A stretch of 64,000 nucleotides of DNA, taken from assembly GCA_022750115.1 (NCBI GenBank), contig JAKIWI010000008.1, forward strand, positions 1 through 64,000. The letters are read 5' to 3'. Position 1 is the stretch's first letter; each line of letters begins with the position of its first letter. Position numbers and translations under genes: made by a program. This DNA comes from Thermoplasmata archaeon. Its GTDB lineage: Archaea > Thermoplasmatota > Thermoplasmata > Lutacidiplasmatales > UBA184. This document shows, piece by piece, positions 20,862 to 39,673 of the stretch. A model generated the notes under the pieces. The model was given only the letters and a program-made list of their open reading frames with translations. It made no database searches and was not told the origin of the DNA.

Positions 20862-21334
20862 TCACCGAGTCGATCGAGCCCGTCGTGAGGCCCGCAGGCC
20901 CCCGCGGGCAAGGACTCGATCCTTCTTCCACGGCCGTCCGAACTCCTCTGGCGTGGGGATCCCGCCACGGGAGGGGGGACATCGAGAAAGGTGGATTCGG
21001 AGCTTCGGCGAGTTCCGACGCGGTTCCACCCGCTTGACCACCTCGCGATTCCAGTCCGATGCCCAAACGATCCGGACCCGCTGGCGCAGGGAATCCCTCA
21101 GCGGGCCGTCGGGCAGTATCCAGCCCACCCGTCCCCGATCGGTCTGCGCCTGGGTGACGATTCCGGCCCTCCCGAGCCGTCGAAGCTCGGTGATCGCCTC
21201 GATGACCTGACCGCCGGTCATCTCCGCGATTCGGTTCGGGTCAAGGGTTGCCTAGCGTTCGCGAGGGCTCCGAAGGTCGAGGCCCTCGACTTGCTCCCGA
21301 ACTGGGCGATGACCCCGGGGTCCACGCTCGCCAT
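20862..21334 (-). pseudogene. Winged-helix regulator-like gene with a probable 1-nt frameshift
   Basis: Frame 1 MASVDPGVIAQFGSKSRASTFGALANARQPLT breaks near 21230-21240; frame 2 continues NRIAEMTGGQVIEAITELRRLGRAGIVTQAQTDRGRVGWILPDGPLRDSLRQRVRIVW. Confidence 0.6.
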
Positions 21335-23365: not shown

Positions 23366-23977
23366 CTACTTGCTCTTGGAGGCGGTCGTCTCGCGCACGG
23401 CCTCGTAGTGCAGGACCAACTCACCGTACTTCATGGTGGTCGCGGAGAGCAACTTCAGGTTGGTTTGGGTCTTCATCGGGTCCCAGTACCGGGGCCCGCG
23501 ACCGAAGACCACGGGCATGACGAGGAACCAGTAGTCGTCCGCGAGATTGAGACGGAGGACCTCGTGGATGAGCCGGGGTCCCCCCTCGATGATGATGTTC
23601 CCGCCCTTCTCGCCCTTGAGCTTCGCGACGATCTTCGCGAGGTCGCCCTTCAGGACCCGCGAGTTGGCCCAATCGAGGTTCTTGAGTCGATGCGAGAGGC
23701 AGACCTTGTCCACCCTCTCCAGGAAGCGAGAGTAGTCGAACATGAACTCGGGAGAGCCCGCCTTCCGTGCCTTGAGGGAGTGGACGCGACGATGGCCGGT
23801 GAAGGAGCGGCGGCCCATCACGACCGTCGTGACGTCCGAGAACCGGTCGGTCCACATCTTCTGGAAGAACTCGTCCGGTTCGCCCGGTTTCCCCGAGGGG
23901 AGATCGGACCCCGGGTACGTGGGGAACTCGCCGCGTCCGTCGAGGGTCATGTACACATTGGCCGTGATTTTTCGCAT
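23366..23977 (-). CDS. RibD C-terminal/dihydrofolate-reductase-like protein
   Basis: MRKITANVYMTLDGRGEFP...DVTTVVMGRRSFTGH...NIIIEGGPRLIHEVLRLNLADDYWFLVMPVVFGRGPRYW. Confidence 0.88.
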   Translation of the reverse strand: MRKITANVYMTLDGRGEFPTYPGSDLPSGKPGEPDEFFQKMWTDRFSDVTTVVMGRRSFTGHRRVHSLKARKAGSPEFMFDYSRFLERVDKVCLSHRLKNLDWANSRVLKGDLAKIVAKLKGEKGGNIIIEGGPRLIHEVLRLNLADDYWFLVMPVVFGRGPRYWDPMKTQTNLKLLSATTMKYGELVLHYEAVRETTASKSK

Positions 23978-24026
23978 GTTCGTTTCCTCGGGTTCTCGCT
24001 CGAAATCGGGACGCGTCGTTCCAGCC

Positions 24027-24476
24027 TCACCCGTCCCATCGGGACCGCAGGTCATGGCCGGTCTCGAGGACCGACTTGAGATTCATTCCGTAGTACGTCC
24101 AGCCCCACTCGGTGATCCCGTAGAGGTCTGTCCACTTCTTTTCCCGGGGGAAACCCCGGTGGACGAGCCGGAACACCGCACCTCCCTTGTTGGGGCGGAC
24201 GGAAATCGTGAGGACGGTCCCCTCGAGCGGCACGCCGTTCCACGCCCAGGTCAAGGCGATCGACCGACCCTTCTCGAACCGCCGGACGATGCCCTGGTGA
24301 CGCCAGCCTCCGTCGAACTCCAACTCGTACATCGCCCCCGCCTGGGCGGGCAGCTCCGCCCGCACGACCATCCACGAGGCCAGCCCCGAGGGCGTGGAGA
24401 TGGCCTCGAAGACCTTCGGTGGGGAGGCGCGGACGAAGAAGTGCCGGTCGACGGTGACGGTCTTGCTCGAGGACAT
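24027..24476 (-). CDS. SRPBCC/AHSA1-like protein
   Basis: TVDRHFFVRASPPKVFEAISTPSGLASWMV...WRHQGIVRRFEKGRSIALTWAW. Confidence 0.85.
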   Translation of the reverse strand: MSSSKTVTVDRHFFVRASPPKVFEAISTPSGLASWMVVRAELPAQAGAMYELEFDGGWRHQGIVRRFEKGRSIALTWAWNGVPLEGTVLTISVRPNKGGAVFRLVHRGFPREKKWTDLYGITEWGWTYYGMNLKSVLETGHDLRSRWDG

Positions 24477-24507
24477 CCGAACCCGTGGAGTTCTCGAATT
24501 CCTGCCC

Positions 24508-24519
24508 AGATATATATCT
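24508..24519. promoter_or_regulatory. Palindromic TATA element between divergent SRPBCC and ArsR genes
   Basis: AGATATATATCT perfect palindrome, about 26 nt upstream of a GTG start at 24539 and 32-43 nt upstream of the minus-strand start at 24476. Confidence 0.6.
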
Positions 24520-24538
24520 TGAGAGGCATGTCATTCGC

Positions 24539-24868
24539 GTGCCCGACGTTTTCCAGCTCCTCTCGGAGCCGTCCCGGAGGCACCTGCTCGAGGCGCTGCG
24601 GGACGGGGAGCGGTCGGTGAATGACCTGGTCGACACGACCCGGATGTCCCAGCCCGCGGTCTCAAAGCACCTACGGTTGCTCAAGGATTCGGGGATGGTG
24701 GCGCTGCGGAGGGACGGTCGGCAGCATCTGTACTCGATTCGGGGGGCACCGTTCCGAGAAGCGTCGGAATGGTTGGGTTTCTACGAGCGATTCTGGCGCG
24801 ACGGTCTTGCCCGTATGGACGAGCTCCTCCGATCGAAGGCCCCCCCAAAGAAGCGGGTGAAATCATGA
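24539..24868 (+). CDS. ArsR-family transcriptional regulator
   Basis: VPDVFQLLSEPSRRHLLEALRDGERSVNDLVDTTRMSQPAVSKHLRLLKDSGMVALRRDGRQHLYSI; ATG at 24485 also possible. Confidence 0.9.
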   Translation: MPDVFQLLSEPSRRHLLEALRDGERSVNDLVDTTRMSQPAVSKHLRLLKDSGMVALRRDGRQHLYSIRGAPFREASEWLGFYERFWRDGLARMDELLRSKAPPKKRVKS

Positions 24869-25344
24869 GCGAGCCGAGCGCACCGCAGGACACCGTACGC
24901 GTCGAGCGAACCATGCACGCCCCGCCCGAGCGGGTGTTCCGCGCGTTCCTCGATCCCGACCTGATCCGACAGTGGGTGACCCCGGGAGACCTCGTGGTCG
25001 ACGGGGTCACCGTGGACCCCAAGGTCGGGGGGCGGATCGTGGTTGACCACTCGCGAAACGGGATCCCCACGGGAAGGTTTGAGGGCGAGTTCGTGAAAAT
25101 CGTGCCGAGCCGAGAGCTGGTCTATCGGTGGGCGTTCGTCGGGACCGAACCGGAAAAGGGAGAATTCTTCGACACGCTCGTGACGGTCACGCTCGCCCCG
25201 GTCGCCGGAGGGATGACCCGCGTGACCGTCGTCCACAACAAGCTCGAGGACCTCAGGCACGGGGCTCCGGAAATCCACGCCCGGGTCACGTGGGGATGGA
25301 ACACCGTGTTGGAGAAAATGGAGAAAGCCCTTCAGGGTCCCTAG
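24865..25344 (+). CDS. SRPBCC/AHSA1 family protein
   Basis: VRVERTMHAPPERVFRAFLDPDLIRQWVTPG...VTLAPVAGGMTRVTVVHNKLED; start overlaps the arsR stop. Confidence 0.9.
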   Translation: MSEPSAPQDTVRVERTMHAPPERVFRAFLDPDLIRQWVTPGDLVVDGVTVDPKVGGRIVVDHSRNGIPTGRFEGEFVKIVPSRELVYRWAFVGTEPEKGEFFDTLVTVTLAPVAGGMTRVTVVHNKLEDLRHGAPEIHARVTWGWNTVLEKMEKALQGP

Positions 25345-25545
25345 TCAGCCTTCGGCACGAAACCGCCGGGGGGGGGCCGCGACCCCTCGAAGCCCTGCTC
25401 CAACCGAACGCGGGGGTTCGACGATCCGGCAGAGGCGGTGTTGCTCCGTGCGAGGGGCGCACAGTTTGCTCGGCCGGGTTGAAAATCCCTCTCGGTCCCT
25501 GGCCTTCCGACCTGGGGAAGGGCGGTAGTCGGCTACCGGATCGAA

Positions 25546-25597
25546 GCCCGTGCTGGGATTCGCCTATTTATTTTGGCACGTCGGATTCGTCGACTCG
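25546..25597 (+). repeat. Direct repeat copy 1 (att-like): tRNA-Arg 3'-end 17-mer plus downstream block
   Basis: GCCCGTGCTGGGATTCG (17/17 to 36250-36266) then AT-rich spacer then GGCACGTCGGATTCGTCG. Confidence 0.75.
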
Positions 25598-25662
25598 ACA
25601 ACCGACACGGACGAAATTCGGATCGCCCGCGTGCTTATCAGGAATCGGCTCATGAGCTAATC

Positions 25663-25896
25663 ATGAGTACCGCGGATCCGATGTCCAGCATTCCCGCCCA
25701 CCGATCCACGATCCAACTGCTCCAGCAGCTCAAGCCGGCCAACAAGAATTGGGACGACTTCCTGCTCTCGGCGTTCGAGGACTGGCTACCCCCAGAAACC
25801 GTGACGGAACTCGAGCGGCGAGAGCGGGCGGAGTCGAGTCGGACCTTCCGGGAAGTCGAGCGCGCGCACCCGAAGATTCGGCGCCTCCGAGCTTGA
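25663..25896 (+). CDS. Putative type II antitoxin
   Basis: 77 aa, MSTADPMSSIPAHRSTIQLLQQLKPANKNWDDFLLSAFEDWLPPETVTELERRERAES...; directly upstream of a RelE-like ORF. Confidence 0.6.
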   Translation: MSTADPMSSIPAHRSTIQLLQQLKPANKNWDDFLLSAFEDWLPPETVTELERRERAESSRTFREVERAHPKIRRLRA

Positions 25897-25899
25897 GCT

Positions 25900-26220
25900 G
25901 TGCCATCGAATCCGCTGGACCCCTGGAAGGACCAGTTCACGTTCGTCCGCTCGGCCGAGCGGGAGTTTCTACTGATGCCCACCCCGGTCCAACAGGCCTT
26001 CGTACACGTGTTCCCTGAGTTCGGTCGGCACCCCTGGAGCGCCTCTGCGACGCTGGACGTGCTCCCCCTCCGGGAGATGCCGGGTCGTTGGAGGTTGAAG
26101 GTGGCGGGCGGACACCGCGGGATCTACCGCTCTCACCAAGGGCGTCCCGACTTCGAGATGTTTCAGTCGAGAACCGAGGTCTACAATCAACTCCGCCGCC
26201 TCCTCTCCTCCCGGCCCTGA
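25900..26220 (+). CDS. RelE/ParE-like toxin
   Basis: FVRSAEREFLLMPTPVQQAF...LDVLPLREMPGRWRLKVAGGHRGIYRSHQGRPDFEMFQSRTEVYNQLRRLL; 3 nt from the antitoxin stop. Confidence 0.7.
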   Translation: MPSNPLDPWKDQFTFVRSAEREFLLMPTPVQQAFVHVFPEFGRHPWSASATLDVLPLREMPGRWRLKVAGGHRGIYRSHQGRPDFEMFQSRTEVYNQLRRLLSSRP

Positions 26221-26296
26221 ATCATGGGCGCGAGTCCGGTCCATGGTCGGGAGCGAGCAGGCCCAGGGTGCGGCGCAATCGGCTTCGGGGCAAACG

Positions 26297-26345
26297 CCCG
26301 CGCTGGGATTCGACTAAATAATTAGGCAGGTCGGATTCGTCGCAC
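26297..26345 (+). repeat. Direct repeat copy 2 (att-like)
   Basis: GCCCGCGCTGGGATTCG (16/17 to the tRNA 3' end) then AT-rich spacer then GGCAGGTCGGATTCGTCG. Confidence 0.75.
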
Positions 26346-26561
26346 CGACGGTGGGCGGGGGCCGGAAACCGGCTAAGCTGTGTCGCTCAGCAAGCGCCGG
26401 CCCCAATCTGGAAAGACAAGTCAGCCCATCCGACGCCTGCGCTCCGGCGATGGTCTGCGCTCTGACGGGCGGCCCCCACCTTTGGCAACGGACACCTCCC
26501 AAGCCCGCTAATACCAGCCTCTACCTCGCCCCAGAGGCGGTTTGTCGAGTCGATAGGTTCT

Positions 26562-26948
26562 ATGGACGGCCAATCGGGAGCCCCCGTGAACTTGCCGGAG
26601 GGGGCGCTTGAGTTTCAGAGTCGGGTGAAGCGCGGGGTCACTTGGCGACTCGGGTTCCTGTTGGTGGACGCGGCGTTACTACTCTGGTTCGGAGCGTCAA
26701 TCAACGCCATGCGACTCTTCACGATCTGGAAGGCTCCCACGTACGTTCCCGGAAGCGTGATCCAGTACTGGTGGGGCTTGGGGGCCGTGATGGGAGCGAC
26801 CCTGGTCCTGGTCGCCGAGTTCGGTGTCTTCAGCTGGCGCGTTCGGGAGACCGCGCTGAGGCGCTTCCCGGGCACATTCCCGCTCGGCCGCGCACGAGTT
26901 CCCGAGGGACCGCCGCCCCCGCCCGCATTCAGCTCCTCGGGCCGTTGA
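26562..26948 (+). CDS. Two-TM membrane protein
   Basis: WRLGFLLVDAALLLWFGASI and VIQYWWGLGAVMGATLVLVAEF segments. Confidence 0.6.
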   Translation: MDGQSGAPVNLPEGALEFQSRVKRGVTWRLGFLLVDAALLLWFGASINAMRLFTIWKAPTYVPGSVIQYWWGLGAVMGATLVLVAEFGVFSWRVRETALRRFPGTFPLGRARVPEGPPPPPAFSSSGR

Positions 26949-26958
26949 GAACGGTCCC

Positions 26959-27261
26959 CTAATTGGGACCCTTCCCCAACAATTCCCCGGATTCGGATGT
27001 GCGGAGTCTACCTTGGTGTCGGCCGATCCGAAGACCAAGGTAGGAACTGAATCCCGCGAGGATCAGGAGCCCCGCAGACCAAGCGGCCAAGACATCGAAG
27101 TACTGAGAGGCCGGTAAGGTTGTGCAGCCGTTTTTTGAGCAGACGTGCAGGGCATGGGGCGACTGAAAGAAGAGCGGAACTACCTCGATGATCAAGATGG
27201 CGATGAGGAAGATCGCCATTGCCATGAACGCGTAGACTGGCCACGGCCGTGAGGAGGTCAT
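26959..27261 (-). CDS. Two-TM membrane protein with CSKNGC loop
   Basis: MTSSRPWPVYAFMAMAIFLIAILIIEVVPLFF...HVCSKNGCTTL...AWSAGLLILAGFSSYLGL. Confidence 0.65.
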   Translation of the reverse strand: MTSSRPWPVYAFMAMAIFLIAILIIEVVPLFFQSPHALHVCSKNGCTTLPASQYFDVLAAWSAGLLILAGFSSYLGLRIGRHQGRLRTSESGELLGKGPN

Positions 27262-27379
27262 TGTCGGAACGTGGGTCTCGGGCACCGCCGCATCAACAGC
27301 CCGATAGAAGGACTCTCCTCCGCTGCCCAAAACCCTCCCGTTTGGCAGGAAGTCGGAGCCGTCGACAGTTCCGGAAAGT

Positions 27380-28297
27380 GTGAAAGCCCCCCAACCGGGG
27401 AGTCCAGCCTTGGGGCCGGCATGGTCGTTATCCGCGCTCAGAACCTTCTGCCACCGTCTGGATGGATTCGTGCGGCTGCCATTGACGACCTCACGATCCC
27501 CCCGCCTATTGCTTGGGCTTGTAGTGGTTGGGCTGGTTGTCATCGCTGGCCTTCCGGGCCCCGCCGCGGCCCGCTTACCGCAGTACGGACCGGTTGTGTT
27601 CTCGCAGAAGGCTCCATTCTCGAACGTCACAACCCAGTGGGGGAGCGGGGTGTACTGGGGGACCAATCCCCAGACCTACCCTCCTGGCTGTGCCCCGACG
27701 TTCCGTCAGCCCCACCGAGGGGCATTCAACGCATCGACGGGTGCGGTCCAACTGGAGCTGAAGGCGTCCGTAACGAGCTGTGGATCGCCCGGCTTCTACG
27801 GAATGTTGCACACACGATTCACCATCGGAAACTTCACCTACACTGTCCCGGCGAACGCCTCCCCGAACCTGACTTACACCTTGTGGTACCACTGGAATGG
27901 CACTGGCGTGCTCCGATACAACATCAGCAATGTCTCCCCGCCGAACGGAATCATCGCGATTGTAGCGGGTGTGGATGCGGGAATCTGTGGACCGTCGCGG
28001 ACCGGCCCGATCGCTTGTGAATGGAGTGCAACGGTCGGGGCGTTAGCGAACGGCACCAGGTCTGGATTGGTCCAGTTCAATTTCACCCGCCCCGGCCAAT
28101 TCAATGGCATTTCCTCGACACATGGATGGCACTTCGCTCCCGGGCAGGTCGTTACGCTCCAGACCGTGCTCGCCTCGTGGATATACATCGACGCAGGAAG
28201 CTCGGTTCCCGTCGGGGCGCGAGCGTCTGGGACTCTCGACCTCTACTCGGGATCCCTTGGGTTCACGCTCATTTCGGTCAAGATCACCGAAAAGTGA
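27380..28297 (+). CDS. Exported, sequon-rich protein
   Basis: Hydrophobic LLLGLVVVGLVVIAGLPGPAAA, then an Asn/Thr/Ser-rich ectodomain with N-x-S/T sequons. Confidence 0.65.
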   Translation: MKAPQPGSPALGPAWSLSALRTFCHRLDGFVRLPLTTSRSPRLLLGLVVVGLVVIAGLPGPAAARLPQYGPVVFSQKAPFSNVTTQWGSGVYWGTNPQTYPPGCAPTFRQPHRGAFNASTGAVQLELKASVTSCGSPGFYGMLHTRFTIGNFTYTVPANASPNLTYTLWYHWNGTGVLRYNISNVSPPNGIIAIVAGVDAGICGPSRTGPIACEWSATVGALANGTRSGLVQFNFTRPGQFNGISSTHGWHFAPGQVVTLQTVLASWIYIDAGSSVPVGARASGTLDLYSGSLGFTLISVKITEK

Positions 28298-28546
28298 CGT
28301 TCGGTCTGGAGCCGCAGGGGCCGCCCTCTGCGATCCCGTTTGGGAAGCAGTCAGGGGGGACCGAGATTCAGCGGGAATGTCGGGGTGCCCCCCCCGCACT
28401 CTGCAAGACTGCGAAGCGCCCCGAGCGGACGACCCCGGCCGGGTTCGCGTCCGAGAGGGCACTCCCAGGTGGTCCCTATCGGAGATTCTGGCACGCTTTG
28501 GGCGAATTCGTGGCAGCGCAGGACATCCGAGGAGTCTCGGACACGC

Positions 28547-28850
28547 CCCCTTCCGAGTCTGGCAGAAGGGGAAGGCCCCCCTCCGGATTGGGTCGTACCG
28601 GTCCGGGTCGGGAGTGTTACGGGATGGGTGTCCCCGTCGGTCGATTTGGGGACGAATTGCGGGACTACTGAGCCTCGCCGGACTCCGGACGGTGACCGGC
28701 GGTCTCGGATAGGACGCCTCCGAGGGGTCGGGATCGGTCGACTCCAGTGATTTCGTGACGCATGGAGTCGACGGACCGGAGTCCCCCGAACTTCCCTGGA
28801 AGGATACGGAAAGTCTACCGAGTCCGCGGAAGGTCCGCCGATTTCCACGG
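28547..28850 (+). repeat. ~300-bp repeat, copy A
   Basis: Near-collinear with the reverse complement of about 34940-35240 (e.g. CTTCCGAGTCTGGCAGAAGGGGAAGGCCCCCC; GTGTTACGGGATGGGTGTCCC; CGGTCGATTTG; GAATTGCGGGACT). Confidence 0.8.
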
Positions 28851-28888
28851 TGCCCACGAACCCCCGCTGCCCGCCCCGCGGAATGATA

Positions 28889-29178
28889 TGTTGGAGCGCC
28901 AGTCGGAAGCCATGAAGGCCGTGGCAGCGAACCCGGGCTCGTTCGACAGGGTCCTTCAGGCAGAGGCGGCACGGGAACGCAGATCCTGGAACCGTATCGT
29001 CTTGCCTTTCCTCGGCGCCGGGGGGTACATGCTGGCGCAAGGAGTCTATCTGGCGCTCCCGAACAGCGCTTGGTCGGCCTCAACCGGCCTGGAGTTGGCG
29101 GCCCTGAGTTGATCGGTCGCGGCGCTGTTCCTGATCTTGGTCGCTCGTAACTGGACGTTTGGGCGGCCCGTCGAGTGA
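28889..29178 (+). pseudogene. Two-TM protein with in-frame TGA at the start of the second TM segment
   Basis: MLERQSEAMKAVAANPGSFDRVLQAEAARERRSWNRIVLPFLGAGGYMLAQGVYLALPNSAWSASTGLELAALS[TGA]SVAALFLILVARNWTFGRPVE*. Confidence 0.5.
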
Positions 29179-29333
29179 GATCGAGCCCCGGTCGGGTTCA
29201 GCCGCCGGCGTGGGAGGTTCAACATTCCAATTCGGTCAGTCTTGGGTTGACGACCGCCGAGGGCGCGGCGCAACCGTTCGGAGCGCCGTTCGCGGTCGCC
29301 TGAATCAGAGTTTGCACGCTGCTGGAATCCGAT

Positions 29334-29564
29334 CTACCTAAGCCAGAGCCGCCGCGCCGCCGACGCGGCGATGCATCCGAGTCCGGTCAGAAGCACCCCG
29401 ACGTCCGCCCACCACGAGAGGCCGACGGTCGAGCTGCGAGTCAGATAGTAGATCGCGAGGGCGATTAGAAAGACGCCACCCGCCAGCACTGAACCCCGAT
29501 AGAAGCGGAGCCACGCCCGCATCAACCTCGGCTGCTCTGGCTCGGCCGGAGTATCGCCTGTCAT
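29334..29564 (-). CDS. Small two-TM membrane protein
   Basis: FYRGSVLAGGVFLIALAIYYL...WWADVGVLLTGLGCIAASAARRLW. Confidence 0.6.
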   Translation of the reverse strand: MTGDTPAEPEQPRLMRAWLRFYRGSVLAGGVFLIALAIYYLTRSSTVGLSWWADVGVLLTGLGCIAASAARRLWLR

Positions 29565-29683
29565 CGCCTCACCCCGTCGATATCGGACGTGGCAGTGTCG
29601 GTTCCCGATTTAGGGGCCTCGAACCACTTTGGCGGGCGCTGGCGGAACCATTCCGGGGGTAGTTCCGGAACGGTTTGGCTCCA

Positions 29684-29822
29684 GTTGTACCGCGGTTCGG
29701 GTTCCGACCTGCGACGGCGGCGGTACTACAGTTCCCGGCGCGGTTCGGCAACGGTAGGATCGAACCGCGCTCGAGGTTGGGCTTGGGGCCTTTCGAGAGC
29801 TCGGCAGTTACACGGAATGAGG
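29684..29822 (+). repeat. ~130-bp repeat family, copy 1
   Basis: CCAGTTGTACCGCGGTTCGGGTTCCGACC...GCGCGGTTCGGCAACGGTAGGATCGAACCGCGCTCGAGGTTGGGCTTGGGGCCTTTCGAGAGCTCGGCAGTTACACGG; aligns with the copies at 34600 (inverted) and 61545. Confidence 0.7.
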
Positions 29823-29830
29823 ACCCCGGC

Positions 29831-30418
29831 TCAACGCAGGCGCCAGTCCTCGAAGCGTTGGACGATTGCCGCACCGACTGGCTGGTCAACGCCAGCTGCT
29901 CGAGTTCGGGCGGGAGGTCCGGCGGTTTGGCGGGTCTCTCGCGAGTTGGGGAGCCCGACTCCTCTCCAGGCCATCCACGATGATCGAACGTACTCTACCA
30001 GGTAGTCCTGCAGGTACCACACGTCTCCAGATTCCGAAGTGATGCGAGCGGGGGTGGAGCCCCCCCGGCCCACGAATCTCGAATCCTCTACTCCCGTCAC
30101 GTCTGAGAAAAGCATGGTCCGGCTCGTGGTGCGTCTGGGAGCAAGCCCAAGAGGCTCGAACGTCCCGACCATTCGATCCTGTCCGAGGGAGATGGTTACC
30201 GGGGTTCGACGGGAGGCCACGAGCACCTGGCTCCACCCCAGCGCCGTGATCAGCGCAAACAACAGCAGGAGCCCGAAATTGAGGATCCCAATCCCCCCGC
30301 GAGCCGAAACCGGAATCGAGACGACCGCCCAGACGATGAGGCCCGCAAGAATGAGCGTGAACACGACCGCGGGTGGGGGGAGTGAACTGTCGACCGAGCG
30401 GTTGTCGAGGTTGGGCAT
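29831..30418 (-). CDS. Two-TM membrane protein with PH-like C-terminal domain
   Basis: VVFTLILAGLIVWAVVSIPV and FGLLLLFALITALGWSQVLVASR, then TVTISLGQDRMVGTFEPLG-type segment. Confidence 0.55.
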   Translation of the reverse strand: MPNLDNRSVDSSLPPPAVVFTLILAGLIVWAVVSIPVSARGGIGILNFGLLLLFALITALGWSQVLVASRRTPVTISLGQDRMVGTFEPLGLAPRRTTSRTMLFSDVTGVEDSRFVGRGGSTPARITSESGDVWYLQDYLVEYVRSSWMAWRGVGLPNSRETRQTAGPPARTRAAGVDQPVGAAIVQRFEDWRLR

Positions 30419-30690
30419 TCAGTGCGGGTTGACCGACATCGGACTCTTCAAGGCTGTGAACCGAGTCCGCTTCCTGTTCCATGCCAGTCAGCGTTGAGAA
30501 ACCCCGCTGTTGAGAAGGGTCGACCTGCCGGGACTTGGCCCGCCTTTCGCAAGGGACCCATTGCCGGACCTTTGCCGGCTTGCGCGAAGGACCTCGCGCG
30601 GAGTCTGGCAATTGCCGAGGCCGCACGGCTCCACCCGCTTCAGGGGTATTCCAAGAGAACTCCGTCCCCCGCGATGCCCGGCAGTCCCTT

Positions 30691-31214
30691 CTAGGCGCCC
30701 TCAAGCGTCCGCACGCGGCGGAACCCCGCCTTCTGGAACGCATGGATCGACCGATCGTTCTCAGCAGACGGCACGGCCACTATTCGGACCGCCTGGCGCT
30801 CTCCGCAGAGGTAGTCGCGAGTGAGCGCGATGACCCGAGTCCCGAGCCCTTTTCCCCTTAACGTCAGGTCGCCGATGAACAGGTCAAATTCGTAGCTCCG
30901 CTCGTCGCGGGGGTAACCCACCAGTTCGGCGTCCGAGGTCCGCAAGCGGTGGTATTGTACGAAGACTACCGGTCGGACGTCCAGGTCCACGACGCAGCCT
31001 GGTACTCGAGGAACCGACCGGTCGCACGGTCCCGTGGCCGCTTCCGTCCGCGTGAGAGGAACTCCTTCCGCACCTTCTCCTCAGCGACCTTCCCCCGATA
31101 AACGGCGTAGGAATCCATGACCTTCGGATCGGACCTCCATCGCGCGAGGAGGGGGACGTCCTCCACCTCCAGGACGCGTAGTCTGGGGCCCGGGGCCGAG
31201 GCCAACACCTTCAC
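30691..31214 (-). pseudogene. GNAT acetyltransferase split by a probable 1-nt deletion
   Basis: Frame 1: VKVLASAPGPRLRVLEVEDVPLLARWRSDPKVMDSYAVYRG...ATGRFLEYQA; frame 2: VVDLDVRPVVFVQYHRLRTSDAELVGYPRDERSYEFDLFIGDLTLRGKGLGTRVIALTRDYL. Join near 31000. Confidence 0.75.
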
Positions 31215-31395
31215 GACCGGTGCGATGCGCCGCGGCCCATGTGCCCTTCGACTACGGGACTCGTTCAGATTGTCCTCACTTGAATCTTGGGGAGGTATAG
31301 GGGGATGGAGCCGGGTTCCGACGTAGGAATCAGCCGCCCGACCTTGGAGCATTCTCGCCCTCGGAGTCCGAGCCTTTTCAAGCCCTCGATCGTCG

Positions 31396-32019
31396 TCAGT
31401 CCAACAGGACTCCCGCGCTTCCGGGCGAACCAAGCACGGTCGCGGAAACCAAGAATCCGTTTGGGGCGACGCCACCAGGGAACGTCATGTTCAGGAGTGC
31501 CCCTGGCTCAACGATCGTCGTGGAGACGCCGGGTTGCCCGGCAGGCAGGGCCCCTGCCACGATACCCCCGTCGGGGTTGGTAATCTTCGCACTGAATCCG
31601 GTCCATATGTATCCACCCGGAAAGGTCGACAGGAACGCGGGATACGCACCCGGGATGAATTCGACCTCAAGATGCCCAACCATTGACCCGTTGGTCAAGA
31701 CTATCGGCTCGCCCGGCGGTGAGGTGACAGTGAACGAGAGGTGGGGTGCTGAGAGGCCCGAGGGCGACGAGAAGTCGAGCAATATGAGGACCCATACCCC
31801 CGAGAGTCCCCCCCCGGCCCACGTGCCTTCTCGCACCTGAGCCAGTGTGGCTCTGAACGGGGGTGGGGCTGGGGTGACACCGGCGAGGACAGCCCATGCG
31901 ACAAGGGCCGCAGCAGCTGCAATCCCGACGAGAGTCGAGGAGAGTTCCCGTCGGCGCAGGAATGCCTTCACTCGCTCCGAGATTCCCGGCGATGACTCAG
32001 GCATATCCTGGAAGTCCAA
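31396..32019 (-). CDS. Single-TM exported protein
   Basis: TLVGIAAAAALVAWAVLAGVTPAPP then an ectodomain with NGS/NMT sequons. Confidence 0.6.
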   Translation of the reverse strand: MDFQDMPESSPGISERVKAFLRRRELSSTLVGIAAAAALVAWAVLAGVTPAPPPFRATLAQVREGTWAGGGLSGVWVLILLDFSSPSGLSAPHLSFTVTSPPGEPIVLTNGSMVGHLEVEFIPGAYPAFLSTFPGGYIWTGFSAKITNPDGGIVAGALPAGQPGVSTTIVEPGALLNMTFPGGVAPNGFLVSATVLGSPGSAGVLLD

Positions 32020-32092
32020 ACGCCTATCGGGGTACGGTTGGAGTCGACGCCGGCCAACATTCCGAACCGGTCCGTTTCGAAGTGCAGAATGA

Positions 32093-32533
32093 TTAGAGGT
32101 ACGCAGGCCGGAGCAACGCTACGCGCTTGGCTTGAACGGGCGTCAAGGAGAACCGCGACGGGACTCCGAAGCGGGACGAAAAGACCTCGAGTCGGCTGCC
32201 TCGGAGAAACGCCCTGTTCCAAGGAAAAAACTCCGAGCGAGCCCCGTAGTCAATAGTGGCTCCTTCGGGGGATAACCCGAGGCTCGAGGCGGGCACCGGT
32301 ACGAGGATTATCCACAAGAGTCCCGACCCTAGGGCGGCGGCGAGCGCAGCGGACTGAACGATGAAGCTCAGCCGGGGCGAAAGCTGATCAACACCGGCCC
32401 ACCCCAGGCCCTGCAGGAGGGCAAAGTCGGCCGCCACCATCGAACTGCAGAACACAAGGAGGAATCCGATAAGCCATGGCCCGCGCGGTTCGCCCGGAAC
32501 CCATTCCACGGGGACAAGAGCGCGTCCGGCCAT
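32093..32533 (-). CDS. Two-TM membrane protein
   Basis: WLIGFLLVFCSSMVAADFALLQGL and SAALAAALGSGLLWIILVPV. Confidence 0.55.
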   Translation of the reverse strand: MAGRALVPVEWVPGEPRGPWLIGFLLVFCSSMVAADFALLQGLGWAGVDQLSPRLSFIVQSAALAAALGSGLLWIILVPVPASSLGLSPEGATIDYGARSEFFPWNRAFLRGSRLEVFSSRFGVPSRFSLTPVQAKRVALLRPAYL

Positions 32534-32654
32534 GACGGGGGAAGGTCGTCTGGGTTTTCAGGTCTGTGCCCGAGCGGGGGAGCCTGAACCCAGTCAGCAA
32601 GATGTCGGTTTCTCGAGGTGCGGTGGGCGGTAGTCATCTCGCCTTGATTGGCGC

Positions 32655-33134
32655 TCACGGCGCCCCTTTCGGCTTGACAGTGAGGCGCCAGCGGATTTCG
32701 CGTGGGAGGGGTCCATCGAGTTCAATCCACGCGACTGGCAATCCGAGCTTCCCCGTCCGCACTACGAGGCGAACCCGCTCTTCACTTCCTGCCAAGGCTG
32801 TGCCCCGCACGTTCGACATCGGGATCTTCAACCGCACAAACCGCGGAGTTCGGATGCGAACGTAGTCGTCGCCGACCGAGAGGGTTCCGCGAAGCACGAG
32901 CAGCCCCGAGAGCGCGACCGGACCGACAACAGTTGCGACGAGGAGCAGGGCAGAAACCATCACTCCGCCATACCATGGGAAGCCGCAGAACGGCTCCCCA
33001 CGTTGACAGGGTGAGGAAACAACCGCGCCGGCGTAGATCGAGCCGAAAATCAAACAACCGGCGTAGCCGTACAGGGCACCGAGGTTGAGGGATCGAAAAC
33101 GGACCGTGGCCTCCAGGATGGCGCCCTCCGGCAT
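32655..33134 (-). CDS. Two-TM membrane protein with Cys loop
   Basis: YAGCLIFGSIYAGAVVSSPCQRGEPFCGFPWYGGVMVSALLLVATVVGPVALSGLLVL. Confidence 0.6.
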   Translation of the reverse strand: MPEGAILEATVRFRSLNLGALYGYAGCLIFGSIYAGAVVSSPCQRGEPFCGFPWYGGVMVSALLLVATVVGPVALSGLLVLRGTLSVGDDYVRIRTPRFVRLKIPMSNVRGTALAGSEERVRLVVRTGKLGLPVAWIELDGPLPREIRWRLTVKPKGAP

Positions 33135-33227
33135 GCGTTCGAGGAATTGGATGATGTCGTTAAGGCCTCGCTTTCCAGGGACGTAAGAACTAACTCGTGC
33201 GCGAGCACTCGCTACCGGTGAGGTACG

Positions 33228-33899
33228 ATGACGGCTGAGCTTCCTGGGCCTCCCTTCCCGGCGCCACCGCCACCTCCTGGCTGGCCGCTGGCGGTCACGT
33301 CCCTACCGCCGGACCTACCCCGCCCTCCCCCGCACTCAGCCAGGACGGTTTGGGCGCTCGGGGCGGTGCTGGTAATTGTAGGTCTGCTCTTCTTTGGGAG
33401 CTTCGTCTACTTCGATCATCCTATTCCTGGGAGCAACTGCAATGACTGGTACGTGTACTGCCCGCGCGGGCTGCCCGACTTTTCGCCGGTGGGCGTGGAG
33501 AAAGTGTCTGCCGGGTCGATTGGTTGCCGCCCGACCTCGGGAGAAGTTTGCTTTGCCTCAACCTTTCAGTCGGCGCTTCACGGCCTAACTCTCGCCCATC
33601 TCCGGTTTGTGCTGGCGAATGCGAGCGAGACCTCAGATACGAACGGGCCGCTCGGTCCCCCATTGCCCCTACCGGCGAGCGCCCGGGTTACGGCGCTGGC
33701 TTCACCAGGTTCTGCCGCGGGGCTTTGGAACGTATCCGGGAGTCAGTGGGTCAGCGGCGGAGACTGGCCGGTTCCGACTGGGCCTGAGGTGTCCGTCATC
33801 CTCGATACCGGCCTCGCCGCAAACACCACCCTGACCGATGCGATGTTCTATGTCGTCTTGACGAGCCCCTACGAGGGGGCCCTTGGATTTCCGATTTAG
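33228..33899 (+). CDS. Single-TM exported protein with Pro-rich N-terminus
   Basis: GPPFPAPPPPPGW then TVWALGAVLVIVGLLFFGSFVYF and a Cys-containing ectodomain. Confidence 0.65.
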   Translation: MTAELPGPPFPAPPPPPGWPLAVTSLPPDLPRPPPHSARTVWALGAVLVIVGLLFFGSFVYFDHPIPGSNCNDWYVYCPRGLPDFSPVGVEKVSAGSIGCRPTSGEVCFASTFQSALHGLTLAHLRFVLANASETSDTNGPLGPPLPLPASARVTALASPGSAAGLWNVSGSQWVSGGDWPVPTGPEVSVILDTGLAANTTLTDAMFYVVLTSPYEGALGFPI

Positions 33900-34023
33900 T
33901 GCCCAGCCCGATGATACCCGCTCAGGAGGAGGCTCACTCGGGCAGTTGTTCGCAACGTGTCCATTGTCAACGCCGGGTCCGTGCCACCGGAGGTCGGACC
34001 GTTTTCCAAGATAGAGACTTCCA

Positions 34024-34542
34024 ATGCAGGCTCCCGCATGGGCAGCCGCGGCCGAGATGCGGCTATCTCTCCCAAGGCCCTGGCCTGGGCGAGCCATGCG
34101 GGGGCGAACCTACGCGATCACGGGCGTGGCAGTTGCGGCGGTCGTCTGCACGCTCCTCGTCTTACTCTGGCTGCCGGTTCCCGGAACTTCAGTGCGCCGC
34201 TCGTGCTACTCGTTTCAGCTGCTCAACTCAGCTCCGGCCGTGCTTTCGAGTGGCAATGGCACCCGGCCGTCTCAAAGGTTCTCATTCACCTGGGCGACCC
34301 TGCCTGCACATCCGGTCTTGGTGACGCTCACCCGGGGCGCCACGGAAACTCAGCTTTACACGAGCTATTCTTCCGCAGGCTCGAGCTCGTACGACTCGAG
34401 CGTCGGCTGGATCGTTTTCACTTTCAATACATCGTCACCCCCTCCAAACCTCACCGTCTTCCTGAACGAGTCATGGCTCGCGTCGACCCCGCACTCGATC
34501 CTGGGGAGCTCGGCAGTTCCGCTCTGCCATTACGGATCCTGA
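34024..34542 (+). CDS. Single-TM exported protein
   Basis: YAITGVAVAAVVCTLLVLLWLPVPGTSVRRSCYSF...NTSSPPPNLTVFLNESW. Confidence 0.6.
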   Translation: MQAPAWAAAAEMRLSLPRPWPGRAMRGRTYAITGVAVAAVVCTLLVLLWLPVPGTSVRRSCYSFQLLNSAPAVLSSGNGTRPSQRFSFTWATLPAHPVLVTLTRGATETQLYTSYSSAGSSSYDSSVGWIVFTFNTSSPPPNLTVFLNESWLASTPHSILGSSAVPLCHYGS

Positions 34543-34599
34543 ACTGTCGCGTTGCTCCCAGGGTGCGGACGCGATAGGCCGTCGGGGACCGGGCGCAAA

Positions 34600-34740
34600 T
34601 CGTAGAGATCTCCAAAGGTCCCAAGCCTAACCGCGTCCCGCGGCTCGGCCAACCGTTGCCGAACCGTGCCGGGGGGGGGTTGCGCCCACGTCGGGGAAGG
34701 TCCAAACTCTAACCGCGCTTGCATCCGCGCGTAACCGGCA
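34600..34740 (-). repeat. ~130-bp repeat family, copy 2 (inverted relative to copies 1 and 3)
   Basis: Reverse complement reads GCGCGGTTAGAGTTTGGACCTTCCCCGACGTGGGCGCAACC...GGCACGGTTCGGCAACGGTTGGCCGAGCCGCGGGACGCGGTTAGGCTTGGGACCTTTGGAGATCT. Confidence 0.75.
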
Positions 34741-34939
34741 CGGAACCGGGTCGGGGGCGGTTGTACCGCCGCCTTCGCAGGTCGTCCGCCGTAATGGGAG
34801 TCCCTGGGTCAGTTGAACCTTCCAGACCGGGCGCCGAACCCAACTCCGGGCCCGCTCCAGCGGTGTCCTCCCCGGTTGGATTAGCTCCCCCAGTTCGGGT
34901 AAGAGTACACTCTCCCAGAGTGTTCGGACAGGATGGTAT

Positions 34940-35240
34940 AGATCAGAACTTCCACGGACGGGGCGGACTTTCCGGATCACTCCGTGGAAGCTCGGGGGAC
35001 TCCAGTCCGTCGAGTCCATCCGTCAAGGAATCACGCGAATCGACCGGCCCCAACCCCGCCGAGGCGTCCTATCTGGGACCGCCGGTGCGCACACGGAGTC
35101 CGCCGGGGCTCAAAAGTCCCGCAATTCGCCCACAAATCGACCGATAGGGACACCCATCCCGTAACACCCCCGACCCGGACTGCTGGGACCCAGTCCGAAG
35201 GGGGGCCTTCCCCTTCTGCCAGACTCGGAAGGGGTCCGGC
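34940..35240 (-). repeat. ~300-bp repeat, copy B (inverted relative to copy A)
   Basis: See copy A; both copies also keep the reading-frame peptide CYGMGVPxGRF..ELRD[YF]*. Confidence 0.8.
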
Positions 35241-35302
35241 TCGGATTCACTCCGATTATCTTGAATTCATCAAATACTCCCGCTCCGAGTTCAGGGTGGG
35301 TC

Positions 35303-35632
35303 ATGTCGCTCCGATGGCGCCGCGCGGTGGCGGCAGTCTCGGTCGTCACCGTGGCCTGCGGCATCGTTCTGATCCTTCACCGAGTCACTCTGTTCCACGA
35401 CGTTCAGAACCAATCCGCTACGTGGAGGACACCTTGCCCTGCCGGGTACGGCCCGTGCCATGTTACCCCGCCCTGGGCTGGAGAGTACGAGCGTTCGCTT
35501 GCCGAGATTCGCATCGGAGTGTTGGTGCTCTCCGCCGGACTCTCGGCCCTGGTCGTGGCGATTGCTTCGACGGTGCGAGACCGATGGCGAGCGTCGAGAA
35601 TCCCGTCGTCGATCCAGGGCCAGCCCGATTGA
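35303..35632 (+). CDS. Small two-TM membrane protein with CPAGYGPC loop
   Basis: AVSVVTVACGIVLIL...RTPCPAGYGPCHVTPP...IGVLVLSAGLSALVVAIAS; layout matches 22357..22668. Confidence 0.65.
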   Translation: MSLRWRRAVAAVSVVTVACGIVLILHRVTLFHDVQNQSATWRTPCPAGYGPCHVTPPWAGEYERSLAEIRIGVLVLSAGLSALVVAIASTVRDRWRASRIPSSIQGQPD

Positions 35633-35675
35633 AACGGGGACACCTTTCCATGTCGCCGCCGACATGGTTGGAGGC

Positions 35676-36179
35676 TCACCGGGGGAGATTCGGCGGGCCC
35701 GGCACTTCGCGCGCCCAATCTTCAGGACTGATCCTCCGTACCTTGCGGGTGAGGTTCCCCGAAAAGCTGAGGATGAACCGATTGAAATCCTCCCCGTACG
35801 GCCCACCCAGGCGCTGCCGAAGCCCGACCCGCTTCACATCCGAGTACTCCCAAAGGACGAGCAGCTCCCGACCTGTCACCTTCAGTCTCACGACCACTGG
35901 AATGAATGTCCGTGAATTTGCAGTGCGGACCGTGGTAATCCCGCCGCGCGTCTGGGAAGATTCAATCGCGTGACCAATATCACGAATGACTTTCTCCGCG
36001 GTTTGTACCGGGTCCCGGGGTTGCCCGAGGTCAACAGGAGGTAGCTCCAGGGCGCGGGCCACTTGCTTGCTCACTGCGGCTGCCTCAAGCTCAAACCTGC
36101 TGAGCCTGGGCGAAGTGCGAGCTTCCCAAAAGGGGAGCTTTTCCAAAGCTTCGCTGATTCGAATCCCACCCGAGTCCAC
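35676..36179 (-). CDS. Hypothetical protein
   Basis: 167 aa, soluble composition, no recognised domain. Confidence 0.5.
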   Translation of the reverse strand: MDSGGIRISEALEKLPFWEARTSPRLSRFELEAAAVSKQVARALELPPVDLGQPRDPVQTAEKVIRDIGHAIESSQTRGGITTVRTANSRTFIPVVVRLKVTGRELLVLWEYSDVKRVGLRQRLGGPYGEDFNRFILSFSGNLTRKVRRISPEDWAREVPGPPNLPR

Positions 36180-36248
36180 ACCAACCTCCCATGTTTCACG
36201 GAAGAGGTTCCCGCCCTGCGGAAGGGCGGGGTTCGGCGTCCGGTTTCA

Positions 36249-36353
36249 CGCCCGTGCTGGGATTCGAACCCAGGTCTGAGGCTCCGCAGGCCTCTAGGAT
36301 AATCCAGTGTAGCGCGGAGGAAGGATCCTTCCGCGAAGCTACCCCACACGGGC
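36249..36353 (-). tRNA. tRNA-Arg(GCG) with probable ~29-nt D-loop intron
   Basis: Acceptor GCCCGTG/CACGGGC; anticodon arm GAGGC-CTGCGGA-GCCTC (anticodon GCG); T-arm CTGGG-TTCGAAT-CCCAG; extra GTAGC-TTC-GCGGA...TCCGC-GCTAC hairpin in the D-loop; 105 nt total. Confidence 0.85.
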
Positions 36354-36497
36354 ACCCGCCGGTTGTTTTCTCCTTGGCGGCGGCCGAGCGACCCTCCCTA
36401 TAAAACCCAGTTCACGCCGCGACTTCGACGCGCGGAGGCCTTTATACAGGTCGGAACTCCCTCCGACGGAGCGGTGGTTCTTCGCCGAGCTCCGTCC

Positions 36498-37814
36498 ATG
36501 TCGGAGAGCGAGCCGGTCGACCCGTGGGAGCGGCTGCGCTCGCTCCCGATGGGGACGACGGTGGCGGTCATCCGATCCGACGGGAGCACATGGACGGGCG
36601 CGGTCGTTCCGCCGCATGAGTTCTCCGGCGCGAGGGTGATTCAGCTCAAACTCGCCAGCGGCTACAACGTCGGATTGCGGATCGATCCGACGGACCGCGT
36701 GACCGTCACGGAACCCACCAAGGCGAACGGGAACGGCCTCCACAACTGGGGGAGTCCACCCGCCACCACCCCCACCGGCCCGTGGGTGGCGCTCCTTACG
36801 ACCGGTGGGACGATCGCGTCTCGGGTGGACTATCGGACCGGCGGCGTCCGCCCGGTTCAGGGCGAACGGGAGATTCTCAGCTTCTACCCCGACCTCGCTC
36901 AGGACGGCCCCGTTCGCGTGGTCCCCGTGTTCGACCGGTTGAGCGAGGAGATCGGCCCGGAGGATTGGGACGAGATGGCCCGCCGAACCGCTGCGGTCTT
37001 CGCCCAGGGAGCGAGCGGCGTTGTCATCGCCCACGGAACCGACACGATGGCGTACACGTCGGCCGCGCTCTCCTTCCTCCTCGAAGACCTGCCCGGTCCC
37101 GTGGTGCTCGTGGGGGCGCAGCGCTCCCCGGACCGACCGTCCTCCGACGGGTTTACGAATCTCACGGCCGCCGTTCGACTCGCCCGCCATCCGGAGCTCG
37201 GGGAGGTCGTGGTCGTCATGCACGACGGTCTCTCCGACGACCGCTTCGCGGTTCACCGGGGCACGCGCGTCCGCAAGATGCACTCAAGCCGGCGGGACGC
37301 GTTCCGGTCCCGCAACGGTCCGCCGCTCGGCTACGTGGAAGGCCCCACCGTGCGCCTCGACCGACCCTTCCGCCCGAAGTCGAAGGGTCCCGCGAAGTTC
37401 ACCGGTCCCCTCGGGACTGGCGCGACTATTCTCTGGTTTCATCCTGGGCTCTCGCCCGAGCGGGCGGCCTCGTTCGCCACCGGGGCGCGCGGGATCGTCA
37501 TCGCCGGCACCGGTCTCGGTCACGTTTCGCTTGCCCATCTCCCGTGGATCCGAGACTCCATCGCGAAGGGGACGGTCATCGCGATGACGACGCAATGCCT
37601 CGAGGGGGAGGCCGACCCGTTCGTCTACGCGACCGGCCGCGAGCTGGCCCGCGCGGGCGTCATCTACCTCGGCGACGCCCTCCCCGAGACGGCGTACACG
37701 AAGCTCCTCTGGGCGCTCGGCCAATCGAACGACCCGCAACGCGTCGGCGAGCTTCTCGCGACCCCCCGGGCCGGCGACCTCGAGGCGCGGCGCGAGGCCG
37801 AGGACCACCCATGA
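36498..37814 (+). CDS. gatD: Glutamyl-tRNA(Gln) amidotransferase subunit D
   Basis: WVALLTTGGTIASRVDYRTGGVRP, GVVIAHGTDTMAYTSAALSF, GIVIAGTGLGHV; paired with gatE. Confidence 0.93.
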   Translation: MSESEPVDPWERLRSLPMGTTVAVIRSDGSTWTGAVVPPHEFSGARVIQLKLASGYNVGLRIDPTDRVTVTEPTKANGNGLHNWGSPPATTPTGPWVALLTTGGTIASRVDYRTGGVRPVQGEREILSFYPDLAQDGPVRVVPVFDRLSEEIGPEDWDEMARRTAAVFAQGASGVVIAHGTDTMAYTSAALSFLLEDLPGPVVLVGAQRSPDRPSSDGFTNLTAAVRLARHPELGEVVVVMHDGLSDDRFAVHRGTRVRKMHSSRRDAFRSRNGPPLGYVEGPTVRLDRPFRPKSKGPAKFTGPLGTGATILWFHPGLSPERAASFATGARGIVIAGTGLGHVSLAHLPWIRDSIAKGTVIAMTTQCLEGEADPFVYATGRELARAGVIYLGDALPETAYTKLLWALGQSNDPQRVGELLATPRAGDLEARREAEDHP

Positions 37815-39673
37815 GGGCCGGGCTCGAGGTCCACCAGCAACTCGCCACGGGCAAGCTGTTCTGCGCCTGTCCGTCGGAGCTCTCCGAGACCGTCACGCGG
37901 ACCGTCGAGCGCCGTCTCCGCGCCACCGGCGGCGAGAACCACGCGATCGACCCTGCGGCCGCCTTTCAGGCGTCCCGCAATCTCACCTACCTCTACGAGG
38001 CGACCCCGACGAGTTGCCTCGTCGAGCTCGATGAGGAGCCGCCCCATCCCCTCAACGGCGAGGCGCTCGACGTCGCGCTCACGATGGCGCTCCTGCTCGG
38101 CGCTCGCCCGCTCGACGAGGTCGAGGTGATGCGGAAGATCGTCGTCGACGGCTCCAACACGTCCGGCTTTCAGCGGACGGCGCTCGTGGCGGTGGACGGG
38201 CGGCTCGAGGTCGGCGGCCGTTCCTACTCGATCCCGACGATCTGCCTCGAGGAGGACGCGTGCCGGCGGGGCGCCGAGTCGAAGCTGGGCGTCCACTTCC
38301 GCCTGGACCGCCTGGGGATCCCGCTCGTCGAGATCGCGACCGGCCCGGAGATCCAGAGCGGCGAAGAGGCGCGGACGGTCGCCGAGGAGATCGGGCTCCT
38401 CCTGCGGGCGACGCGGCGGGTCCGACGTGGGATTGGGTCCATCCGCGAGGATGTCAACGTCTCGGCCGAGGGCGGGGCCCGCGTCGAGCTGAAAGGGGTC
38501 CAGGAGCTACGACTCGTCCCGCAGTACGTCGACGGCGAGGTGGCGCGCCAACGCGCCCTCCTCGAGGTTCGCGACGAACTGAGCCGGCGGCACGCCAGCG
38601 TGCCGAACGACGCGCCGACCGACGTCACCGAGGAGCTCCGCGGTCTGGGGAGCGGTCCGCTCGGCGACACGGTTCGCCGGGGAGGCGCCGTGCTCGGCAT
38701 CGCCCTTCTCGGGTTCTCGGGGCTCCTCGCACCGCCGGGCGGAACCCGCGAACGGCTGGGCCGCGAGCTCGCCGACCACGCCCGCACGACCGGAGTCCGC
38801 GGCCTGTTCCACTCCGACGAGATCCCCTCGCAGGGGATCGAAGGGGGGATCAACCTCGCACTCCGAAATCGACTTCGCGCGACGGGTCCGCAGGATGCAT
38901 TCGTCCTCGTGGCGGCTCCCACGCCCGAGGAGGCGAACCGGGCGCTCGCCGCGATCCGGGCACGCGCGGCCCAGGCGCTCGAAGGCATTCCCGCCGAAAC
39001 GCGCGACCCGCTCCCCGACGGCCGGACGCGGTTTTCGCGCCCGCTCCCCGGTCGCGACCGGATGTATCCGGAGACCGACGTCCCCCCCATCGCGGTCAGC
39101 GCGGAGCGACTTCGGACGCTGCGCGCCCACCTGCCGGAGCGTCCCTCCGAGACCCGCGCGCGCCTGCTCGCGAAGTACTCCCTCTCCGAGGACGTCGCGC
39201 GCGCCCTCCAGAAGGCGGCGGATGTGGACCGGTTCGAGGAACTGGTGGCCCGCGGCCACACGAGCGCCCTGGTGGCGCAACTGCTCGCCAGGGAGATCCC
39301 CGCGACGGGGGACGACGAGCCGTTCGATTTCCCGACCGAGCTGCTGGACGAGCTACTCACCGCAGTCGAGCACGGGACCTTCGCAAAGGAAGGGATCGGC
39401 CCGGTCGTCGCCGCGCTCGCGGCTGGCGCCCCGACAGTCGCCGACGCCATCGCGAAGAGCGGCCTCTCCGGCATGGACCGCACCCAGCTCGAATCGATCG
39501 CATCGGCGATCGTCGCGAAGAACGAGGCGCTGATCGCCTCCCGCGGCGAAGGTGCCTTTTCCCCTCTGATGGGGGATCTCATGCGGGAAGTGCGCGGCCG
39601 GCGTGACGGACAAGAGGTCGCCGAGGTCCTCCGCGTCGCCCTGGCCCGGCGGTCCGCGCCGGGAACCACGTGA
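37811..39673 (+). CDS. gatE: Glutamyl-tRNA(Gln) amidotransferase subunit E
   Basis: MRAGLEVHQQLATGKLFCACPSEL...GSIREDVNVSAEGGARVELKGVQEL...RMYPETDVPPI; ATGA overlap with gatD. Confidence 0.95.
   Translation: MRAGLEVHQQLATGKLFCACPSELSETVTRTVERRLRATGGENHAIDPAAAFQASRNLTYLYEATPTSCLVELDEEPPHPLNGEALDVALTMALLLGARPLDEVEVMRKIVVDGSNTSGFQRTALVAVDGRLEVGGRSYSIPTICLEEDACRRGAESKLGVHFRLDRLGIPLVEIATGPEIQSGEEARTVAEEIGLLLRATRRVRRGIGSIREDVNVSAEGGARVELKGVQELRLVPQYVDGEVARQRALLEVRDELSRRHASVPNDAPTDVTEELRGLGSGPLGDTVRRGGAVLGIALLGFSGLLAPPGGTRERLGRELADHARTTGVRGLFHSDEIPSQGIEGGINLALRNRLRATGPQDAFVLVAAPTPEEANRALAAIRARAAQALEGIPAETRDPLPDGRTRFSRPLPGRDRMYPETDVPPIAVSAERLRTLRAHLPERPSETRARLLAKYSLSEDVARALQKAADVDRFEELVARGHTSALVAQLLAREIPATGDDEPFDFPTELLDELLTAVEHGTFAKEGIGPVVAALAAGAPTVADAIAKSGLSGMDRTQLESIASAIVAKNEALIASRGEGAFSPLMGDLMREVRGRRDGQEVAEVLRVALARRSAPGTT

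Follow-up and report, generated by a model that had tools for sequence, protein, structure and literature searches.

Integrase-less islands that accrete at RNA genes are already known in bacteria. In Dehalococcoides, tandem islands at ssrA are flanked by direct repeats derived from the 3′ terminus of this small RNA gene; some of them have an integration module, whereas 15 have none and were proposed to be cis-mobilizable (PMC3146451). Cis-mobilizable elements (CIMEs) keep attL and attR, have lost their integration genes, and share their site with related elements arranged in tandem (PMC5704250). Integron cassette arrays without an integrase (clusters of attC sites lacking integron-integrases, CALIN) have been reviewed (PMC11389934). 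Among archaea, the integrated elements of Thaumarchaeota occupy tRNA 3′ ends, have short att repeats (17 bp median) and, in the case of tyrosine recombinase elements, form arrays (PMC6563490). The main text of the description of the order Lutacidiplasmatales mentions no integrases, toxins or mobile elements (PMC9287336). Here we analysed 64,000 nucleotides of a Thermoplasmata archaeon of this order (contig JAKIWI010000008.1, positions 1 to 64,000; hereafter the window), where the interval 25546-36249 adjoins the 3′ end of a tRNA-Arg(GCG) gene. We consider it likely that this interval is an accreted tandem of two integrase-less, CIME- or CALIN-like units, which would have been recombined into the tRNA by an integrase acting in trans.

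The locus shares with the Dehalococcoides islands the tandem arrangement and the units without an integration module. However, those islands are bacterial, target tmRNA, use serine recombinases and carry dehalogenases, whereas here the host is archaeal, the target is tRNA-Arg, the enzyme would be a tyrosine integrase, the cargo is mostly toxin-antitoxin genes and the units are as small as 0.75 kb. As in CIMEs, neither an integrase nor, among the Pfam-scanned open reading frames (ORFs) of the interval, any transfer gene was found. CIMEs arise by decay of bacterial integrative and conjugative or integrative and mobilizable elements, whereas no conjugation genes were seen here and mobilisation is a hypothesis. 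CALIN is a functional analogue, in which small cassettes form an array and would depend on an integrase in trans, but it uses attC sites and an integron integrase in place of a tRNA-derived core, inverted arms and a tRNA-targeting integrase. No attC ends of the GTTRRRY type were seen on inspection of the repeat copies described below, though no attC covariance search was made, and the genome has no IntI, its only PF00589 match being XerA-like. The cryptic elements of Thaumarchaeota (2.6-98 kb) are defined by carrying an integrase, unlike the window units. Of the properties of Islander-type islands, the interval shows an intact tRNA at one end, a 3′ fragment in the same orientation at the other, presence/absence among relatives and foreign composition; an integrase gene inside the island is missing.

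The 3′ 17 nt of tRNA-Arg(GCG), GCCCGTGCTGGGATTCG on the plus strand, recur in the same orientation at 25546-25562 (0 mismatches) and 26296-26312 (1 mismatch), in addition to the copy within the tRNA at 36250-36266 (0 mismatches). In the window, five matches were found at up to 3 mismatches against 0.60 expected, a number that was reached by no shuffle. A preliminary description of the locus had reported the same recurrence, and it holds, except that the internal copy starts at 26296 and not at 26297. Its repeat of 17 nt was too short, as the repeated module extends into the flank and into a right arm: 25507-25562 and 36211-36266 are 80% identical over 56 nt, so that the similarity runs past the tRNA sequence, and the two copies away from the tRNA (25529-25599 and 26279-26349) are 76% identical over 71 nt. 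We compared the locus with 77 congeneric genomes (78 with its own; G numbers are genome labels). The features at the ends of the units are as follows.

25507-25545, plus strand: distal copy of the tRNA 3′ flank
25546-25562, plus strand: distal att-like core (17/17) and left boundary of the island
25563-25594, plus strand: type-1 right arm of the toxin-antitoxin cassette
25663-25896, plus strand: antitoxin-like ORF, 77 aa, with homologs at tRNA-Arg in G022, G069, G047 and G072
25900-26220, plus strand: RelE-like toxin ORF, 106 aa, with its stop ~80 nt from the 26296 core
26296-26312, plus strand: internal att-like core (16/17), junction between the two units
26313-26344, plus strand: type-1 right arm of the 9.95-kb unit (nhmmer, 53.7 bits, with a model trained on this copy and six similar copies)
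26313-36249, unstranded: 9.95-kb unit, which lacks an integrase and contains small membrane/exported ORFs along with repeats and broken genes
36205-36249, plus strand: tRNA 3′ flank with a terminator-like hairpin, common to G010 and G054 and 80% like 25507-25545
36250-36266, plus strand: att-like core at the tRNA, 17 nt, from T-loop to acceptor end (17-mer match)
36250-36353, minus strand: tRNA-Arg(GCG), integration target, 3′ end facing left (ARAGORN, acceptor pairing, fold)

ARAGORN placed the tRNA at 36248-36320 on the minus strand. The acceptor pairing GCCCGTG/CACGGGC and the fold give a full gene of 36250-36353 that includes an extra hairpin, in agreement with the extent and the left-facing 3′ end described earlier, and the 5′ end seems to have been misplaced by ARAGORN. 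This hairpin, in the 5′ half of the gene, is variable in sequence among the congeners seen and is probably a D-arm intron. The genes gatD and gatE start directly past the tRNA, as had been noted, and gatD is kept beside tRNA-Arg(GCG) across the genus.

The 17-mer does not occur at many unrelated loci, since the 2.12-Mb assembly has a single further match at up to 2 mismatches (C1:18535). That match is likely due to chance, because it lies inside a coding gene and has no right arm. We considered it as an att site paired with the assembly's only PF00589 match and rejected this pair, as the XerA-like gene is present genus-wide and the site is within a coding gene.

The internal core divides the interval, so that the anchored island proposed in the preliminary description stands, but as two tandem att-bounded units and not as one. 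The first unit is 750 bp (25546-26295) and contains only the antitoxin-like and the RelE-like ORF. The second is 9.95 kb (26296-36249) and decayed. The GC content at 25-36 kb is 0.61-0.65 against ~0.70 over most of the window, a deviation in composition that had been proposed as a check.

Near tRNA-Arg in other species the 17-mer recurs, and is mostly followed by one of three types of arm. Type 1 (CCY-AT-rich-RGGC-N5-GGATTCG) follows both copies in the window as well as copies in G054, G072, G047, G069, G016, G086 and G090; type 2 (TTAGGC..GG..AACGAATAC) was found in G041, G005, G065 and G019, and type 3 in G049, G022 and G068. A fourth form of arm (TACCCNTATGGTTCCA...CCGATTCG) was seen in G078 (contig C6) after two 17-mer copies, 3.5 and 8.5 kb from the tRNA. 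One could suppose that the 17-mers serve to regulate the toxin-antitoxin pair, as its promoter or operator, and resemble a tRNA end by chance; the arms are indeed AT-rich and one of them is upstream of the antitoxin gene. We regard this as highly improbable, given the excess of matches in the window over the 0.6 expected, the copies that flank units without a toxin-antitoxin pair, and the arm-bearing copies near the tRNA, all of which are in the orientation of the tRNA.

No tyrosine integrase was found inside the interval, as reported before, and the sole PF00589 match of the assembly is the genus-wide XerA-like protein on another contig. An integrase family does occur at the same tRNA in relatives. 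In G019, a 478-aa integrase ORF starts 52 nt from the tRNA-Arg 3′ end, and homologs are placed 52-57 nt from tRNA-Arg(GCG) in G042, G090, G022, G049, G077 and G086 (seven genomes including G019). In our alignment, A1, the catalytic residues of tyrosine recombinases are invariant (R159, K203, Y288-R291 of the YxxR motif, H318 and Y326). Five of six members matched a PHROG integrase family (E 7.8e-10) and two weakly matched XerA, while Pfam gave no match for the family. It is present in 32 of the 78 genomes and was not found in this assembly. Relatives of the family in Thermoplasmata metagenome-assembled genomes lie 3′ of tRNA-Arg, -Lys, -Ala, -Ser, -Glu, -Val and -Thr genes; the viral contigs searched gave neither a relative of the integrase nor an exact 19-nt att match.

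At the integrase-bearing tRNAs, the core is adjoined on its element side by an inverted repeat of the distal arms, and the types correspond (z up to 9 when compared with shuffled arms): type 1 matches G077, G086 and G075, type 2 matches G019 and G042, and type 3 matches G022 and G049. The tRNA-side arm of G090 is a good match to none of the three types. The integrase carriers with type-1 arms, G077 and G086, are candidate partners of the window units. In this genome, cores are present at all ends together with the right arms, and left arms are not recognisable. The tRNA-Glu element of G054 carries an integrase, a distal copy of the tRNA 3′ end 15.8 kb away, and the inverted arms AGGGTAATACC/GGTATTACCCT; as judged from these features, it shows the same anatomy independently, with the enzyme present. 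The arms and the integrase family at the same tRNA in seven genomes lend support to the earlier suggestion that the element would be decayed or mobilised in trans, and the search for integrases in related islands proposed there was productive.

The copied flank raises another explanation, in which the repeats stem from duplication, homologous or illegitimate, of the tRNA 3′ end and its terminator, the interval being ordinary fast-evolving intergenic DNA and site-specific recombination having no part. The flank was copied along with the 17-mer, and G054 too has a copy flanked by the terminator. Duplication would, however, leave unexplained the conservation of right arms across species, their match to the inverted arms beside integrase genes, and the integrase family 52-57 nt from tRNA-Arg, and we consider it improbable.

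Low-GC units have a hotspot at the tRNA-Arg flank throughout the genus, and many of them have RelBE-, AbiE- or nucleotidyltransferase-type pairs. RelBE pairs are at tRNA-Arg in G069, G059, G047, G072 and G055, an AbiEi/AbiEii pair in G065, and nucleotidyltransferase/winged-helix pairs in G041, G054 and G010, the last three being labelled toxin-antitoxin-like by gene pairing and a weak AbiEii match only (E 0.023). The att-bounded units (n = 20) have a GC content of 0.60-0.665 against 0.685-0.75 in the right flank, where this was available. About 154 RelE matches were found genus-wide. In 688 kb to the left of 64 tRNA-Arg loci, all RelE matches except that of the window lie within 3.3 kb of the tRNA; as the model includes tRNA-Arg cassettes, only the four matches near tRNA-Arg that are outside its training are a fair test, and these compare with 0.21 expected (P about 7e-5).

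Among the relatives, G010 has the most similar GatD (74% identical); it has nothing of the 22.2-36.2 kb region, and its FNR-like gene, at 21.5-22.2 kb in the window, is 1.4 kb from the tRNA. We rejected G010 as an empty site, as a nucleotidyltransferase/winged-helix pair sits 0.6 kb from its tRNA. Because this pair occupies the tRNA flank, G010 shows only the absence of the window island. A winged-helix ORF remnant was observed at 20862-21221 in the window, beyond the FNR-like gene; its G010 homolog belongs to that nucleotidyltransferase pair. On the left of the island is a chromosomal flank:

23366-25344, unstranded: DHFR/RibD-like, SRPBCC, ArsR and SRPBCC genes

G068, G022 and G087 likewise have related sets of DHFR-like and SRPBCC genes to the left of their arrays, with other DNA between the set and the tRNA. 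As these genomes share the flank genes and differ in their inserts, the left edge of the variable insert is near 25546. The absence of the island from relatives, which the preliminary description had looked for, was thus seen in G010 and in these different inserts, but not as an exact empty site in this species.

In the cassette, a small antitoxin-like ORF directly precedes a RelE-like toxin ORF, as in RelBE type II systems. The window toxin alone has no match in Pfam, NCBIfam or PADLOC, and the RelBE type was tentatively assigned from sequence: the profile of the toxin family matches E. coli RelE with E about 1e-5. A single-sequence fold of the toxin was of low confidence (pLDDT 46), too poor to use. 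Among the first 40 relatives searched, the closest toxin homolog (62% identical) is beside tRNA-Arg in G022. In G022, G079 and G087 (a remnant in G087), where the cassettes touch tRNA-Arg, the toxin homologs lie at 81-85 nt from the core. The most likely role of the pair is addiction, by which the chromosome would retain the cassette, and perhaps it acts in defence as well.

The missing integrase could also be explained by decay in cis. In that case the units were once autonomous and lost their own integrase gene by deletion after integration, trans mobilisation played no part, and the scars were kept since loss of the toxin-antitoxin genes is costly. We regard this as a serious possibility, if somewhat short of an even one. 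The 9.95-kb unit is rich in broken genes and repeats, one of its repeats also occurs in the integrase-bearing G054 element, the assembly has no integrase of the family, and common descent could explain the conserved spacing of the toxin. However, many integrase-less units at tRNA-Arg are only 0.75-1.5 kb long with a tidy toxin-antitoxin operon between the arms; their toxins are of several unrelated kinds and their arms of two types. Small tidy units with unrelated toxins and two types of arm favour repeated entry in the small form.

In the favoured explanation, trans mobilisation, an integrase of the tRNA-Arg-associated family would be supplied by a resident or incoming element, bind the core and the inverted arm sites, and recombine attP with the tRNA. 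The tRNA would be rebuilt in this way, with the displaced 3′ fragment left at the distal end of the insert. Of the two units, the RelBE-type cassette of 750 bp would have entered first; the 9.95-kb unit would then have entered at the tRNA, pushing the cassette away, and decayed afterwards. The 9.95-kb unit was probably the later one, because it parts the cassette from the tRNA, whereas the relatives of the cassette touch the tRNA. More tentatively, the single toxin-antitoxin operon may itself be the mobile unit of an archaeal cassette system: each operon, flanked by cores and arms derived from tRNA-Arg and having no integrase, would be captured and stacked at one tRNA by the integrases of other resident elements. 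Such a system would resemble integron cassettes in capture and stacking but would have a tRNA gene as its platform.

Several observations weigh against trans mobilisation. The 9.95-kb unit has no recognisable left arm on its tRNA side. The flank there resembles both the ancestral tRNA flank and 25507-25545; therefore, an attP carrying the flank, or a later exchange, is required. G054 holds a tRNA fragment with the same flank but without a right arm. Completeness of the assembly is 90%, so that an integrase encoded in the remaining part could have escaped detection. The RelBE cassettes beside tRNA-Arg in G000, G022, G079 and G087 may have been inherited vertically and not acquired separately. 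All genomes compared are metagenome-assembled, and no exact empty site was found for this species in the 78-genome comparison. No excision, circle or transfer was observed, and we infer mobilisation.

Within the 9.95-kb unit we observed the following features.

28472-28835, minus strand: copy of a 289-nt repeat, with an inverted partner at 34946-35248 and a relative inside the integrase-bearing G054 element
30691-31475, minus strand: GNAT acetyltransferase, broken into two frames
34946-35248, plus strand: second copy of the 289-nt repeat (83%)
35676-36179, minus strand: 167-aa ORF beside tRNA-Arg, with a 50% homolog that adjoins tRNA-Ala(CGC) in G072

The relative of the repeat in the G054 tRNA-Glu element and the tRNA-Ala-adjacent homolog of the ORF fit an origin of this unit from an element. 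Apart from short weak matches, the only DNA found to match the unit in the 78 genomes is a near-identical contig end in G061; an Rfam search of 20-37 kb found no family. The G061 contig (C189) is 99.975% identical to window 34479-38478 over 4 kb, though G061 represents another species; since the contamination of G061 is 8%, this suggests a stray contig. Further, a 543-bp stretch with a small membrane-protein ORF (32069-32610) has an 88% copy in the same genome at C5:317202-317744. A second low-GC stretch of the same contig (60-64 kb of the window and C24:64-68 kb) has the same non-coding repeat families as 28-35 kb, with copies at 61548, 65773, 66591 and 66676, and at that similarity none elsewhere in the assembly.

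In the literature searched, we found no account of an archaeal genus in which small toxin-antitoxin cassettes are stacked at a single tRNA and three types of att arm pair with integrase lineages at this site. Such cassettes offer a possible route by which toxin-antitoxin genes spread without coding for their own mobility. The arms and cores provide a natural set of specificities for an archaeal tRNA-targeting integrase family that is missed by Pfam, and the combination of tRNA core and arm gives a rule for searching for such units in other archaeal genomes.

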